NCBI GenBank assembly: GCA_012718915.1
Contig: JAAYBI010000058.1
Span: forward strand, 1-51,641
Length of the DNA stretch: 51,641 nt
Source: Clostridiaceae bacterium
GTDB taxonomy: Bacteria > Bacillota > Clostridia > Saccharofermentanales > Saccharofermentanaceae
Direction of reading: 5' to 3'
The notes beneath the pieces were generated by a model, which saw only the letters and a list, made by a program, of their open reading frames with translations, did no database searches and was not told the origin of the DNA. The position numbers were made by a program, and so were the translations under genes. This document shows positions 3,858 to 9,663 of the stretch, one piece after another. Numbering within the stretch: position 1 is the stretch's first letter; each line of letters starts with the position of its first letter.

Positions 3858-3876
3858 CACTAATAAATCATATAGC

Positions 3877-3970
3877 CTTATCTCCCAGGTCACCCTGCCG
3901 GAATTGGCACCGCTGCTCTCCGCGGTTGCCGGGCTTCATAGGGCCGTATCCCTCTGCCACTCTTGATAAG
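3877..3970 (-). promoter_or_regulatory. SAM-I (S-box) riboswitch aptamer
   Basis: Read on the minus strand the leader starts CTTATCAAGAG, continues with a kink-turn segment, the conserved ATGAAGCCCGGCAACC, then GGTGCCAATTCC, and closes with GAGATAAG. P1 pairs CTTATC with GATAAG. This order and these conserved blocks are those of the SAM-I riboswitch. It lies directly before the metK attenuator, so it most likely turns metK off when SAM is plentiful. Confidence 0.96.
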
Positions 3971-3996
3971 AATGAAACTAATTCAATCGTTTTTTG

Positions 3997-4455: not shown

Positions 4456-5391
4456 ATGCAATCAACTGTACACATCATCGATTCCGATCCCGCATATTCT
4501 CGTTTACTCATTGGTCGCTTACACGCTCATCTACCTGGTTTTTCAATTCAATCAATTGACAAGAATGATATAAGTTGCAAAACTTTTGGCGAAAATGATG
4601 TCATTCTATACGATTCAAAGACATGCAAATCGGAATCAATAAGTCGTGAGATTCCGGCACAACATGTTCCGACAATCAGCCTGAGAGATCAAAACAGTTT
4701 TCGAAAAAGCGCACGACTGCTTTCGAAGACCGTTCGCAACGAGCTTCACATATCGGAGGCGAAAGTTGATTTTTCGTGCAATGCTGATTTCACTCACCGG
4801 GGACGACTCGTTTTCTTTATCTCTCTTTCCGATTTTTCAAAAAGAGAAACATACATTTCGGCGAATACGACGATGATAAGAAACAATATGAATTTCGTAT
4901 ACCGCTTGAACCTCATGCCGGGTATTCGTATGCCACACAGCAAGTTCGAGCGAAGCACTTCTCGCGGAATCGAAAGATCAGCATCCGGCATCAGCGAGTT
5001 GTTGTTAAAATTATCCGGAAAAGCAAACAGTAATATCTTGCTTTCCTCATACGTCAACTTAGATGATATGGGTTTTCACAATTTTGGTCGCCCTGTCAGA
5101 TCTGACGACATTATAGATTCTGACGTTTCAGTCCTTACGACTCTAATTAACTTGTTGAGAAAAGAAGTCGACATGCCGGAGAACAAAGTTTCTGCAGTAG
5201 TCGTTTTAGAGGGTTTGTCATTTAAGAAACTCGAATTACTTTGTCCGTTGGCTCATGAGATTCACATGATTCTTCCAAACGAATCTGAAAATGAGGATTC
5301 CCTCTTCAATAACGAGATTGAATCTTTGTTCCGGAGTCTCCCGCCCCAACAACTTAAGTTCGTAAATGCTTCAGAAAGGGTATTCGCATGA
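4456..5391 (+). CDS. TadZ/CpaE-like protein with degenerate P-loop
   Basis: Probable TadZ/CpaE-type localisation factor of the pilus system. Residues 1-90 resemble an atypical receiver domain (VHIIDSDPAYSRLL, later VILYDS and VPTISL). After about residue 110 the layout follows the MinD-like half of TadZ, but where a GGxGKTT Walker A would stand the sequence reads SLSDFSKRET, so nucleotide binding is doubtful. The C-terminal part (VSAVVVLEGLSFKKLELL...HEIHMILPNE) matches the position of the Walker B and following strand without its acidic residue. Assignment rests on the weak pattern and on position immediately before the TadA ATPase, whose ATG overlaps this stop by four bases. It could be an unrelated protein that replaced TadZ. 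Confidence 0.6.
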   Translation: MQSTVHIIDSDPAYSRLLIGRLHAHLPGFSIQSIDKNDISCKTFGENDVILYDSKTCKSESISREIPAQHVPTISLRDQNSFRKSARLLSKTVRNELHISEAKVDFSCNADFTHRGRLVFFISLSDFSKRETYISANTTMIRNNMNFVYRLNLMPGIRMPHSKFERSTSRGIERSASGISELLLKLSGKANSNILLSSYVNLDDMGFHNFGRPVRSDDIIDSDVSVLTTLINLLRKEVDMPENKVSAVVVLEGLSFKKLELLCPLAHEIHMILPNESENEDSLFNNEIESLFRSLPPQQLKFVNASERVFA

Positions 5392-6647
5392 AACTTAAAT
5401 TCAGAGATCACGCTGTGAAATCAAGTGATTACATGACACAAGCAGCCTCTTCTCGTGACGCGAACGTTGATTCTCCAAATAGTTCTTCTTTGGACATAGA
5501 TGCGTTAAGACAGCGTCTCAGCCTTTACATCCTTCAAGAGATGCACGAGGATAACGAGATCAGTGATGATGCTTTTCGCGAAGTCATAGCAGATGTAATC
5601 GCTAATGACGAGTATTCAAAGAGCTTGACACTAAGCGAGAAGCGAGATCTCGCTGCCTCAATATTCAATAAAATGAGACGCCTTGATATCCTTCAACCTA
5701 TGATGGATGATCCCGGAATCACCGAAATAATGGTAAACGGTGCAAACTGCATATTTTTCGAAAAGTCCGGACGCCTATATCAAAGTAGCTTGCGCTTCAA
5801 AGATGCAGAATATCTCGAGTCAGTAATCACGTCTTTCTTCTCTCGAGCAAACCGTCCCCTAAACGAGTCCTCACCGATTGCGGATCTTCGGCTCCCCGAC
5901 GGGTCTCGAGCGAATGCTGTCTTGCCTCCGGTTGCTCCGGACGGGCCCATTTTCACCATTCGAAAATTTACCGGAGTTCGTCCGGATATGGAAACGTTGA
6001 TTAGACAAGGTTTTATCAATCGAGAAGCTTCAGATTACCTTTCTTCTGCCGTAATTTCCAAAAAAACAATTTTTATCTGCGGCGGCACAGGGTCAGGCAA
6101 AACAACTTTTTTGAATACGCTTTCTTCGTTTATACCAAAACACGAGCGAGTGGTCACCATCGAAGACTCCGCCGAACTTCGTTTGCAAGGTATTGATAAT
6201 CTTGTGCGGCTCGAGGCTCGCCTTCCGGGTCCTGACGGACACGGCTCAATTGACATCGGCAAATTGATACGTACGGCACTGCGAATGCGTCCTGATCGAA
6301 TTATTGTCGGAGAGGTGCGAGGCGAGGAAGCAGCCGAGATGCTTCATGCGCTTCATACCGGTCACCCTGGTTCATTGTGCACCGGTCATGCCAATTCATG
6401 TACGGAAATGCTTAATCGTTTAGCCACAATGGTTATGGCAGGTTCATCCTTGCCTTTCGATGCAGTCATAAGACAGATTGAAATGGGCATCGATATTCTT
6501 GTACACATTCGAAGAAATTCGGATGGGAAACGAGTGATTAACGAAATCTGCCGCATGGGTCCGTCTTCGAACGACAGGTTAATCGCACTTCCTGTTTTTA
6601 TAAGAAAGGAGCAAAATCTTGAAAAACACGTTGCAATCAATAGCTGA
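5388..6647 (+). CDS. cpaF: TadA/CpaF-type pilus assembly ATPase
   Basis: Cytoplasmic secretion ATPase that powers Flp/Tad pilus assembly. The 419-residue protein has an N-terminal helical region (to about residue 90), the CpaF motif PMMDDPGITEIMVNG, then Walker A GGTGSGKTT at about residue 230, the IEDSAEL aspartate box, Walker B IIVGEVRGEE near 303 and the HTGHPGSLCTGHA histidine box near 325. Catalytic residues are all present. The ATG overlaps the upstream stop (ATGA), which indicates translational coupling, and the downstream gene starts inside its 3' end. Confidence 0.94.
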   Translation: MKLKFRDHAVKSSDYMTQAASSRDANVDSPNSSSLDIDALRQRLSLYILQEMHEDNEISDDAFREVIADVIANDEYSKSLTLSEKRDLAASIFNKMRRLDILQPMMDDPGITEIMVNGANCIFFEKSGRLYQSSLRFKDAEYLESVITSFFSRANRPLNESSPIADLRLPDGSRANAVLPPVAPDGPIFTIRKFTGVRPDMETLIRQGFINREASDYLSSAVISKKTIFICGGTGSGKTTFLNTLSSFIPKHERVVTIEDSAELRLQGIDNLVRLEARLPGPDGHGSIDIGKLIRTALRMRPDRIIVGEVRGEEAAEMLHALHTGHPGSLCTGHANSCTEMLNRLATMVMAGSSLPFDAVIRQIEMGIDILVHIRRNSDGKRVINEICRMGPSSNDRLIALPVFIRKEQNLEKHVAINS

Positions 6648-8214
6648 CAATCGCGGCAAATTGAGCACCCGAATTGCTTGTTCAGAGAAGAAAGTAATTG
6701 ATCCTTCTCGACGCTCACGCCGTCACTTTCTACTACGACACCTTTATTTATATCCTGCTTGTCTCGGTGTTACATTTGTTTTGTCTGATCCTTTTTTGCC
6801 GGTAATGATTCTTCGTCTTCTCATGTCAGCACTGCTTTCTGTCTTCCCATTTCTGGCGGTCATTCGAGTTCTTTATTCAAAACGAAGTATGTTACTCCGA
6901 GCACAGAGCAAAGTGCTTCTGCAATCCCTCTGTACGTCCGTTTCCGGAGGTTATTCGCTCGAAAGCGCATTGATGTGCGCTCGAGGCAACATAGAAAAAG
7001 CTTTCGGCCAAAGAAGTTTAATGGGCGCTGCACTGATTCGGCTTGAAAAGTCTTTATCGGCACACGAGCCGGTGGGGGACTGTTTAGTAGAGATGTGTAG
7101 AAGGCTCGATTACATTGAGCTGTTACCTGTTATGCATGCGCTCTCCATTTCAAGAGTCGTCGGAACAGGAGTCATTTCCATCTTACGAAATAGCTGTCAA
7201 ATGCTCTCCGAATTAATGGCTGTCCGAAGCGAAGTTGAAGCAAATAACTCCGGAAAGAATGCTGAGGCATTTATTCTATGTCTTATGCCATTTGGAATTA
7301 CCTTTGCGCTATCAACATTTTCATCAGACTACATGTCCGTGGTTAAATCTAATCCCTTGGGCAATTTTATGATGCTTCTGGCATTCATTATAGCGGTCAT
7401 TTCATGTGCCCTTCTTTTTCGAATAATCGGAGAGAATGATAATAAGAAACTCAATCTAGGATTTCAAGAAGAACAATACCCAACCTTTGTTAATCGAATC
7501 GTTAATCAACTCGGCCATTGGGCCTCGAAGTATCTTCCGCAAAGCTATTTAACACGGCAACACGAATTATTTGGCGAATTATCTCAACAGCCTCAATTGG
7601 CGTTTTATCAGTTTATCGCCAAAACGATTGCTGTGGTCATATTTACGATGCCCCTTTCCATGTTCATACTCAATTCCTTGAATCAACCTCTGTGGATATC
7701 ACCGGGCATTGCTTTCTTGCTCACTGTGTTAATGCATCAAGACCTAAATAACAAGGTCATGCAAAGACGCGAATGCATCATGCAAGAAATCCCCCTCTTC
7801 CTCTCTATGCTTGTCACGCTTCTTCAATCCGGAATGCTGCTTCCAAAGGCCATTGACACATGCTCGGCCGCTTTTCATGAAAGTTCTGTACTCGGAAATG
7901 AATTGAGATACATAAAAGCGCATATTCTTTCCGGTCATTCTGCCGGTACCGCGATTGAGGCTTTTTCGGCGAGAACCGCAATACCGGAAGCGCAATCCGC
8001 CTTACTATTAGCAGCGCGCTTTGAACTATCGGGCGGATCAGAAGTTCTGTCTCTTCTATCTCTTCAATCAAATTCCTGCTGGTCATTAAGTCGAAACGCA
8101 TCCAGAAAAAAACGAGAAAGAGAGGCTTTGTCAATGATTTTTCCAATGATGCTGGACTTCGTTTCTGTACTCATCGTTGCCATTTCTCCGGCTCTGATTT
8201 CTCTAAAATTCTAG
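6619..8214 (+). CDS. TadB-TadC fused inner-membrane platform protein
   Basis: Membrane platform of the Tad pilus. Two GspF-type (T2SSF) units sit in one 531-residue chain. The first unit covers about residues 90-275 (LLQSLCTSVSGGYSLESAL..., then paired membrane segments), and the second about residues 380-531 (EIPLFLSMLVTLLQSGMLL..., ending in a membrane segment). Hydrophobic segments also lie near residues 45-75 and 330-375. In most Tad loci TadB and TadC are separate genes of about 300 residues each, so this is a fusion. The start is a TTG at 6619, seven bases behind AAGGAG and 29 bases inside the 3' end of cpaF. Confidence 0.85.
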   Translation: MKNTLQSIADNRGKLSTRIACSEKKVIDPSRRSRRHFLLRHLYLYPACLGVTFVLSDPFLPVMILRLLMSALLSVFPFLAVIRVLYSKRSMLLRAQSKVLLQSLCTSVSGGYSLESALMCARGNIEKAFGQRSLMGAALIRLEKSLSAHEPVGDCLVEMCRRLDYIELLPVMHALSISRVVGTGVISILRNSCQMLSELMAVRSEVEANNSGKNAEAFILCLMPFGITFALSTFSSDYMSVVKSNPLGNFMMLLAFIIAVISCALLFRIIGENDNKKLNLGFQEEQYPTFVNRIVNQLGHWASKYLPQSYLTRQHELFGELSQQPQLAFYQFIAKTIAVVIFTMPLSMFILNSLNQPLWISPGIAFLLTVLMHQDLNNKVMQRRECIMQEIPLFLSMLVTLLQSGMLLPKAIDTCSAAFHESSVLGNELRYIKAHILSGHSAGTAIEAFSARTAIPEAQSALLLAARFELSGGSEVLSLLSLQSNSCWSLSRNASRKKREREALSMIFPMMLDFVSVLIVAISPALISLKF

Positions 8215-8235
8215 CAGCAAAATAAGGAGGCAAAA

Positions 8236-8424
8236 ATGAAAAACAAACAATTACCAAAAACGTTTTCTACAAATCGAAAAGGCATGGGCACGGTCGAGAT
8301 CGTAATAATCATCGCTATTCTCGTCTCTTTGGCACTGGTATTCCGTGAGGGTCTGACTAATTACGCCGAGAATATTATGGACTTTGTATTTAACGACGGT
8401 CAAGTCATCGGTTCACTGAGGTAA
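8236..8424 (+). CDS. Flp1-type pilin
   Basis: Small (62 residues) prepilin of the Tad system. A short basic leader is followed by KGMGTVEIVIIIAILVSL. Cutting after Gly16 would leave Glu at position 5 of the mature protein, the hallmark of type IVb pilins, and the next 18 residues are hydrophobic. The mature pilin would have 46 residues. A strong AAGGAGG stands five bases before the ATG, fitting a highly made structural protein. No prepilin peptidase gene is in the window, so processing must depend on one elsewhere. Confidence 0.88.
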   Translation: MKNKQLPKTFSTNRKGMGTVEIVIIIAILVSLALVFREGLTNYAENIMDFVFNDGQVIGSLR

Positions 8425-8433
8425 ATAAGAAAA

Positions 8434-9663
8434 ATGAAAATTGAGCGCGGACCATATGGCAAAATAGCTGTATTTGATTTAGATCAAACACTGGTTCTGC
8501 ATGCCCTTGAGGTATTGCAGAACCAGTCCTGCCCTTGTTTTTTGCGGGCAAATGTCAGAGAGCAATTTGGCCATCTACAAATTTGCTATGATTGTACCGG
8601 ACTTAGAAGACTGTCTGAATACAATATATCGGAGACAGAAAATCTCGATCAATTAAGAACATCCGTGAAAAATCTTCTTCTCTCTTTGTTGGAAGCTTTA
8701 GATTATTGCCTATCCCCTTCAGGAATTATTTTAGACGAAGAGCATATTTGGATAGATCCCGTCGATAAAAGTATTTACTTGACCTATTTCCCGACGAGAT
8801 TGGACACCTCATCAGACCAATGCAACCTGACCGCAATAGACACGGATACATTGGACAAACTTCTGGGACATTCTATTTTTTCACAAGTCATTCCGACTGC
8901 CATCAAGCAGAAACTCATCTGCTCTTGTCAGAATAATGATGAACGGGGATTCGAAACCGCAATAAATAAAATAAGTAACTCGGGTTCTCTTACCCCGAAG
9001 GAAAGCGTGTCTATATCAATCTACACAAAATACTGGGCTTCATTGCTCGCGATTACAGCCATATATGGTATTTTGCAGCTTCGAATAATCTTTGATCAAT
9101 CCGCCATCTCAAAAAATGCAGATTCGTTTGAATCTCTGTTTTTTCTTTTTATTCCAATAGCTCTCTGCGCTGCAGCATTATTTCATAAGCAATTTAAGCA
9201 GGAGCATTCGCTTAGGGTTAATCCGTCTGAACTTAAAGAAAGACGACAAGTACAAGCCGGCATATTTTTCCCTGATCACTGTAACGAAACGACTTTGAAA
9301 TCAAGCGATGACTATGAGCAAAGAATTCGACCCGCATACCTAATTGAGCAAGAAGAGTACGGAATAAGCACAGCCAGACAGAAAAAGCGTCGCTCGTTTT
9401 TGGTTTGGGTCGACGACTACCTAATTGGAGCTGACAAATCTCTCTGTGATTTATATGTCAACGATGATTCGGTTGATCTCATGCATGCCCGGATTCTTAA
9501 AAGAGGCCATACCTATTTCCTCTCAGATCTAGGCTCGTCGAGCGGAACATGGATTGGGCACCAGAGACTCTATTCCCATGAAGAAACTCCCCTTAACGAA
9601 AACGATATAATCATCATCGGGAATTATCGATTATTGTTTTCATATAGCGGAAATAAGGATTAA
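8434..9663 (+). CDS. Membrane protein with C-terminal FHA domain
   Basis: The first 200 residues resemble the N-terminal domain found with FHA domains in clostridial Tad loci (I believe DUF6382). Two hydrophobic segments follow near residues 200-220 and 230-248, and an FHA-like domain at about 315-405 that contains LSDLGSSSGTWIG. The phosphothreonine-binding Arg of the usual GR is Ala (LIGADKS), and the SRxH motif reads DLMH, so binding to phosphopeptides is uncertain. Position at the end of the pilus operon, nine bases after the pilin, suggests a regulatory or anchoring role in pilus assembly. Its stop codon overlaps the stop of atpC on the other strand by three bases. Confidence 0.75.
   Translation: MKIERGPYGKIAVFDLDQTLVLHALEVLQNQSCPCFLRANVREQFGHLQICYDCTGLRRLSEYNISETENLDQLRTSVKNLLLSLLEALDYCLSPSGIILDEEHIWIDPVDKSIYLTYFPTRLDTSSDQCNLTAIDTDTLDKLLGHSIFSQVIPTAIKQKLICSCQNNDERGFETAINKISNSGSLTPKESVSISIYTKYWASLLAITAIYGILQLRIIFDQSAISKNADSFESLFFLFIPIALCAAALFHKQFKQEHSLRVNPSELKERRQVQAGIFFPDHCNETTLKSSDDYEQRIRPAYLIEQEEYGISTARQKKRRSFLVWVDDYLIGADKSLCDLYVNDDSVDLMHARILKRGHTYFLSDLGSSSGTWIGHQRLYSHEETPLNENDIIIIGNYRLLFSYSGNKD

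Follow-up and report, generated by a model that had tools for sequence, protein, structure and literature searches.

The question raised by this stretch of DNA, a window of 51,641 nucleotides from the draft genome of a Clostridiaceae bacterium (contig JAAYBI010000058.1), is whether the five genes at positions 4456 to 9663 can build a tight adherence (Tad) pilus by themselves or belong to a larger machine. An earlier note on this DNA had described a locus without CpaB, peptidase or pseudopilins and had suggested that this assembly core might be a minimal machine. Here we argue, with a probability of roughly 0.83, that the five genes form the core operon of a single Tad (type IVc pilus) system, the other parts of which reside at two conserved sites elsewhere in the genome, on contigs C105 and C77. 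Gene identities, single matches, order-wide conservation and the homology of the remote genes to full Tad loci are all established at the level of sequence.

The identities given in the earlier note to five plus-strand genes are borne out, and all open reading frames (ORFs) are found at the positions given here. The first gene encodes a TadZ-like protein of 311 residues (4456..5391, +), with a receiver-like N-terminal domain and a ParA/MinD-like domain without a P-loop, and is followed by the gene for the TadA/CpaF assembly ATPase (419 residues; 5388..6647, +). Next are a fused TadB-TadC platform protein, hereafter TadBC (531 residues; 6619..8214, +), with a TadB N-half and a TadC C-half, a Flp1-like major prepilin (62 residues; 8236..8424, +; PF16982, 1.7e-13) and a DUF6382-FHA protein (409 residues; 8434..9663, +; PF00498, 8.5e-14; PF19909, 6.9e-13). 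These ORFs overlap or are separated by no more than 21 bases, and clear Shine-Dalgarno sequences precede genes 1 and 4. Conservation was followed in 58 genomes of the order, which we take to be Saccharofermentanales: the genome itself, one congener, 32 further members of its family and 24 from the rest of the order. Searches of the genome for A24, TadE and CpaB gave no match within the window, as the earlier note had said of the locus; a secretin was not searched for. CpaB (TIGR03177) is without a match across the whole 96%-complete draft, and it matches 8 of the 58 order genomes, above cut-off in 2. We do not take CpaB as defining in monoderms, because it is not in the list of components for Bifidobacterium breve (PMC6916266; this and the other papers cited were available to us in part).

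The earlier note held that a peptidase must exist, and proposed a genome search for peptidase and pseudopilins together with a comparison of gene content across clostridia. The first of these recovered an A24 peptidase on C105 and, from pheT to secA on C77, three minor-pilin-like genes. The A24 match is the only one in the genome and lies near typA-mltG. It has the catalytic Asp pair, its Pfam matches do not include the methylase family, and residues D104, G178 and D181 are invariant in 12 aligned A24 proteins (this one and those of 11 relatives). On contig C77 the gene order is pheS (named by eye), pheT, a 95-residue gene, a DUF5702 gene (465 residues), a TadE-like gene (358 residues), a 100-residue gene, a TrpR-family gene and secA. 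DUF5702 was matched at C77:15688-16344 (E=4.2e-17), and the 358-residue TadE-like protein beside it, hereafter TadE2, carries a C-terminal PF21111 domain (3.5e-10). The standard TadE family, PF07811, has no match in this genome, and the minor pilins that characterise Tad systems (TadE/TadF) have divergent counterparts on C77, namely the TadE-like, DUF5702 and short TadE-like genes.

Both remote sites are conserved. A TadE2 profile built from 16 order and 2 outgroup sequences matches 55 of the 58 order genomes; the 16 contributing genomes are among these, leaving 39 independent finds in the other 42. In all 55 fetched stretches the DUF5702 gene directly adjoins TadE2, and in 51 the short TadE gene abuts DUF5702. 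The stretches are short; 49 of them include secA and 26 pheT. A prepilin-type motif, [GA]xxxx[ED], is present in each of the 16 TadE2 proteins read. PF07811 matches four order genomes, at the remote site in G042 and G048 and in a second canonical Tad cluster in G041 and G044. A24 was found by Pfam in 55 of the 58 genomes (52 above cut-off), and that of G036, presumably Mageeibacillus indolicus, was recovered by a profile built from A24 sequences of the order (E=2.4e-7).

The single A24 of our genome says little alone, because type IVa-type genes are also present, on contig C11, where two T2SSE matches lie together and other genes were named by eye. More telling are ten genomes (G037, G039, G042, G043, G045, G046, G048, G051, G054 and G057) in which TadA is the only T2SSE match among the candidates scored, at most 27 out of 28 to 63 in each; G011, 78% complete and also with a single T2SSE match, was excluded. 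All ten carry one A24 match and one TadE2 match each, and therefore A24 and TadE2 go with Tad and not with type IVa pili. Moreover, A24 occupies the same typA-mltG-U32 site in our genome and in the three TadA-only f2 genomes examined (G037, G043 and G046). Some GxGD ORFs beside the FHA gene in several f2 loci were considered as a local A24, and are uracil phosphoribosyltransferases by sequence (named by eye). A gene for a CPBP-family (PF02517) membrane protease is paired with A24 in f1 and f2 genomes (L006:7533-8519, -; L131:4142-5239, -), and one also adjoins the A24 gene of our genome.

Comparison with other clostridia shows where such genes stand when a Tad cluster is whole. A scan of 291 genomes of the class gave 112 with a match, and from the better matches 15 Tad loci of other families were picked; the gene families of L151, L155 and L156 were checked by family search. 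The fullest, L151, reads TadZ, TadA, TadB, TadC, Flp1, TadE, DUF5702, a second TadE-like gene, A24 and FHA, and L149, L157 and L162 have this type of order, each with at least one gene that is truncated or carries no label. Counterparts of the remote genes are found inside these clusters by profile search. The order's DUF5702 profile matches a DUF5702-type gene within 10 of the 15 loci at 1.5e-16 or better, the ten best matches of the TadE2 profile are the second TadE-like genes of outgroup Tad loci, and the in-locus TadE-like gene of L151 itself carries PF21111 (4.4e-16). The short TadE profile ranks the first TadE genes top, weakly (best 9e-7, filters off). The window locus is therefore the fullest cluster minus the block between Flp1 and FHA, with tadB and tadC fused and otherwise colinear. 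L151 shares with the window locus the order from TadZ through Flp1 to FHA, and the outgroup loci have the same DUF5702, TadE-like and A24 families, but they form one cluster, keep TadB and TadC separate and have a TadE with a leader, and their composition varies among the 15. A complete minimal machine, as the earlier note had suggested for the assembly core, is not supported.

The core is likewise maintained across the order. TadBC is matched in 56 of the 58 genomes and Flp1 in all 58 (53 above cut-off). The locus or pieces of it were fetched in 43 genomes, and in 34 all five genes stand in one stretch, some clipped by contig ends. Against the nearest relative, G001, the proportion of nonsynonymous differences (pN) is 0.08-0.20 over the five genes and the proportion of synonymous differences (pS) 0.53-0.79; these are quoted in place of dN/dS because synonymous sites are saturated. 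Since all five are together in 34 of 43 genomes and pN is below pS for each gene, the grouping is more than chance. No TadZ was recognised in 5 of the 43 (G011, G024, G028, G053 and G056), contig ends cut the locus of G051, which shows no platform gene, and TadZ and FHA fall under threshold in G048. In G004 and G036 the five genes are split between two places. A loss of Flp1 and FHA from these two genomes was considered and rejected, both genes being found elsewhere, in G036 as a pair about 20 kb away. The flp1 gene of G004 is interrupted by inserted DNA with several large ORFs (438, 816 and 571 residues; L051:5672-5965, -; L120:7641-7877, +); the disruption is natural and is seen in this one genome. 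Minus-strand genes flank the locus, metK on one side and those for ATP synthase on the other, and metK lies within the fetched stretch in 33 of the 43 genomes. At the edge of the locus, and outside the pilus system, is the SAM-I riboswitch of metK (3875..3972, -; RF00162, 76.1 bits).

Pfam gave no match for gene 1. A profile of 35 order homologues matches the solved chain 3fkq (E=2.9e-6), which we take to be the published TadZ of E. rectale, and 3fkq is also the best fold match of the predicted model (Foldseek 3.1e-9; VIA Z 13.1 over 273 residues and both domains), followed in VIA by the VpsO kinase domain (Z 12.4). In the model, residues 1-100 are receiver-like and a MinD/ParA-like domain starts from about residue 111. 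The model was built on 4 sequences (mean predicted local distance difference test score 70, predicted template modelling score 0.54) and superposes on 3fkq with a root-mean-square deviation of 16.3 over 273 residues, probably through differing placement of the two domains; because of both, we claim only the fold of the domains. The P-loop pattern is absent from 36 of 37 order homologues, and the lone instance (L042) lies at residue 86, ahead of the ATPase-like domain. Gene 2 is matched by T2SSE (6e-51), by CpaF 8rkd as the best solved structure (9.9e-76) and, as its best NCBIfam match, by the TadA family model, under that model's cut-off.

Gene 3 has T2SSF on its C-half at 5e-5 (23.7 bits, below the cut-off of 25.2). 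The single TadB-TadC chain of the earlier note is indeed one 531-residue frame, its N- and C-halves matched by outgroup TadB and TadC, which are separate genes in the same order, and each of the ten order genomes included in the class scan encodes TadBC as one uninterrupted frame. We considered whether the fusion might be a retained two-domain platform of archaeal type. The halves of archaeal platforms stand in the opposite order (PMC6668835), and because the outgroup order is TadB then TadC, a later fusion of tadB and tadC is likelier. Seemingly fused frames outside the order proved on reading to be separate genes in G326, G140 and G195; others, such as that of G072, were left unread.

The prepilin has a class III-type site, RKG/MGTVEIVIIIA (the slash marking the cut), with Glu at +5 and a mature chain of about 46 residues. 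Gly(-1) and Glu(+5) are kept in 40 of 43 order homologues, the rest being two with Ala(-1) and the interrupted G004 gene. It is thus a small prepilin of the G/xxxxE kind, and lacks the Tyr+6 of canonical Flp; residue +6 is Ile in the window and Ile, Val or Met, never Tyr, in the 43 homologues. We call it Flp-like because Tyr+6 is absent, a class described from Gram-positive tad loci in the available part of PMC3244431. Those pilins are likewise small, without Tyr+6 and in tad loci, but most of their loci carry tadV, and no dispersal is described in that part of the paper. In the DUF6382-FHA protein, hydrophobic stretches separate the two domains (by eye). The arginine of the FHA domain is replaced by Ala (IGAD), and phosphothreonine binding is doubtful because most f2 and f3 relatives have Arg there (IGRD); a role as a scaffold would be more likely.

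The short TadE genes show an unusual feature. In all 55 genomes the start codon, chosen by motif and position, falls a few residues at most from where the conserved Glu/Gln stands; a recognisable ribosome-binding motif precedes it in 54 (the exception is G034), and upstream in-frame starts, where read, overlap or precede the ribosome-binding sequence. Glu/Gln is present near the start in 52 of the 55 (not in G018, G031 or G052). Where residue 2 is small and the methionine would be removed, Glu/Gln is residue 6 in 24 proteins and residue 5 in 9; where residue 2 is large and the methionine would stay, 18 proteins (G016 read by hand) have it as residue 5 and 1 as residue 6. In 42 of the 52 its place in the mature chain would thus be +5. 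The exceptions are nine MSTL[EQ] proteins, including that of our own genus (MSTLQ), and G034. Sorted by hand at genus level, the pattern holds in 17 of 20 entries, which stand for 19 genera with g2 counted twice (Fisher p=0.014, uncorrected for kinship), and the tracking of residue-2 size by the Glu/Gln position is suggestive only. A tentative reading is that the short TadE is a leaderless pseudopilin that starts near the former cleavage site and bypasses the prepilin peptidase, its mature N-terminus being set by methionine aminopeptidase.

We note further observations on the genes of these sites. PF21111 is the Pfam family CDI_toxin_EC869_like, and it is C-terminal in TadE-like minor pilins (L171:6539-7612, -; L151:3981-5084, -). 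A structural tip domain appears more likely than a variable toxin, because the region is conserved across 18 aligned sequences. A gene of about 100 residues lies between the TadE-like and TrpR-family genes (L171:6115-6414, -). The second canonical Tad cluster of G041 and G044 (L121, L122-L123), which has CpaB, TadE and an unfused TadB and TadC, occurs alongside the dispersed system. In the genome studied here no second Tad cluster was found, which the earlier note had raised as a sign that this locus might be a partial duplicate; the missing parts occur once each and lie at dispersed sites. There is one TadA-type T2SSE beside PilB- and PilT-type matches, one Flp1 match and one TadBC match. A more sensitive TadBC profile gives two; the second is probably the platform gene of the type IVa set on C11, a gene labelled by our TadBC profile as well.

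In the dispersed system that we propose, an ancestral cluster (Z-A-B-C-Flp1-TadE-DUF5702-TadE2-A24-FHA) would have been broken up in the ancestor of the order while tadB and tadC fused. A24, whose action on Flp1 is inferred, would process Flp1, DUF5702 and TadE2 by cutting behind a Gly or Ala. A TadA hexamer may then drive the TadBC platform to assemble a thin Flp1 fibre that the minor pilins would start, tip or cap, with TadZ placing the fibre and the FHA protein acting as a scaffold or regulatory link. Its most likely role, also inferred, is adhesion to surfaces or cells.

Several observations weigh against this proposal. The three sites are joined by sequence comparison, and the genomes are mostly drafts. 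The outgroup loci vary, the whole order being plain in L151 only; DUF5702 is not found in L153 and L155, TadA is not beside the platform genes in L156 and A24 was not seen in L159. Pfam's DUF5702 matched only 37 of the 58 order genomes, although each of the 55 stretches has it by a closer profile. No TadE2 was recovered from G011 (78% complete), G022 (89%) or G053 (93%, 600 contigs), and neither Pfam nor the order profile detected A24 in G035 and G040, both of which retain Flp1. Another T2SSE ATPase may have escaped the scoring in the ten TadA-only genomes, A24 lies at other sites in all four TadA-only f4 genomes examined (G039, G042, G045 and G048), and our genome's single A24 may serve mainly the type IVa-type genes.

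Three alternatives were weighed. The first concerns function only and overlaps with our proposal: the same dispersed system may have DNA uptake as its main task. Flp pili of Micrococcus luteus, encoded at two distant loci with a fused TadB/C and a remote TadV, serve transformation (PMC4322843), and those members that lack type IVa ATPases would have to take up DNA by a different pilus. However, the type IVa-type genes of our own genome could do so, and we regard this as unlikely. It is more improbable still that two separate systems are involved, with the core serving secretion or sensing and the C77 genes another purpose, for example SecA-linked export. The distance between the sites and the frequent presence of secA would fit such a split, as would the DUF6382-FHA proteins that type VII secretion clusters also contain (PMC11217815), but homologues of both gene sets stand together inside outgroup Tad clusters and their joint presence is near-universal in the order. 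The least probable is a minimal monoderm machine in which the five genes and a type IVa peptidase assemble Flp1 pili without minor pilins: the locus holds none, and neither PF07811 nor CpaB matches in the genome, but the divergent minor pilins of C77 exist, recur across the order and in all ten TadA-only genomes, and are homologous to in-locus Tad genes elsewhere.

The dispersed Tad system has partial precedents. The tad-1 and tad-2 loci of M. luteus lie about 1.2 Mb apart and are both required, just as the sites are scattered here, and they share with the order a fused TadB/C in one cluster and a TadV elsewhere (PMC4322843). That system differs in being actinobacterial, in having no TadZ, in its Flp site (G/XXXXEY) and in TadE/F-type ORFs that keep a processing site; no mention of DUF5702 or FHA was found for it in the available part of that paper. 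The Tad system of B. breve is likewise monoderm, with a TadZ and a peptidase in a different locus, but has two platform proteins and two minor pilins (PMC6916266). According to the same source, the minimal type IVc machinery comprises a major pilin, two minor pilins, a peptidase, two platform proteins and an ATPase, and all of these are present here once the remote sites are counted and the platform proteins are taken as fused. The literature searched, available to us in part, yielded no description of the dispersed arrangement of this order or of a leaderless TadE, and our search found no paper on DUF5702 and a single one with DUF6382. The order-wide three-way split, the remote DUF5702/PF21111 minor-pilin set and the leaderless TadE thus appear to be new.

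Taken together, these data caution against calling a pilus system incomplete or minimal on the strength of a single cluster, as all its parts can be present at scattered sites; surveys that rely on clustering would draw the wrong conclusion for the entire order. If true, the loss of a leader throughout an order would mean that processing by prepilin peptidase is dispensable for some minor pilins. Moreover, the order offers a natural test bed, in which the ten TadA-only genomes let a peptidase and minor pilins be assigned to Tad.

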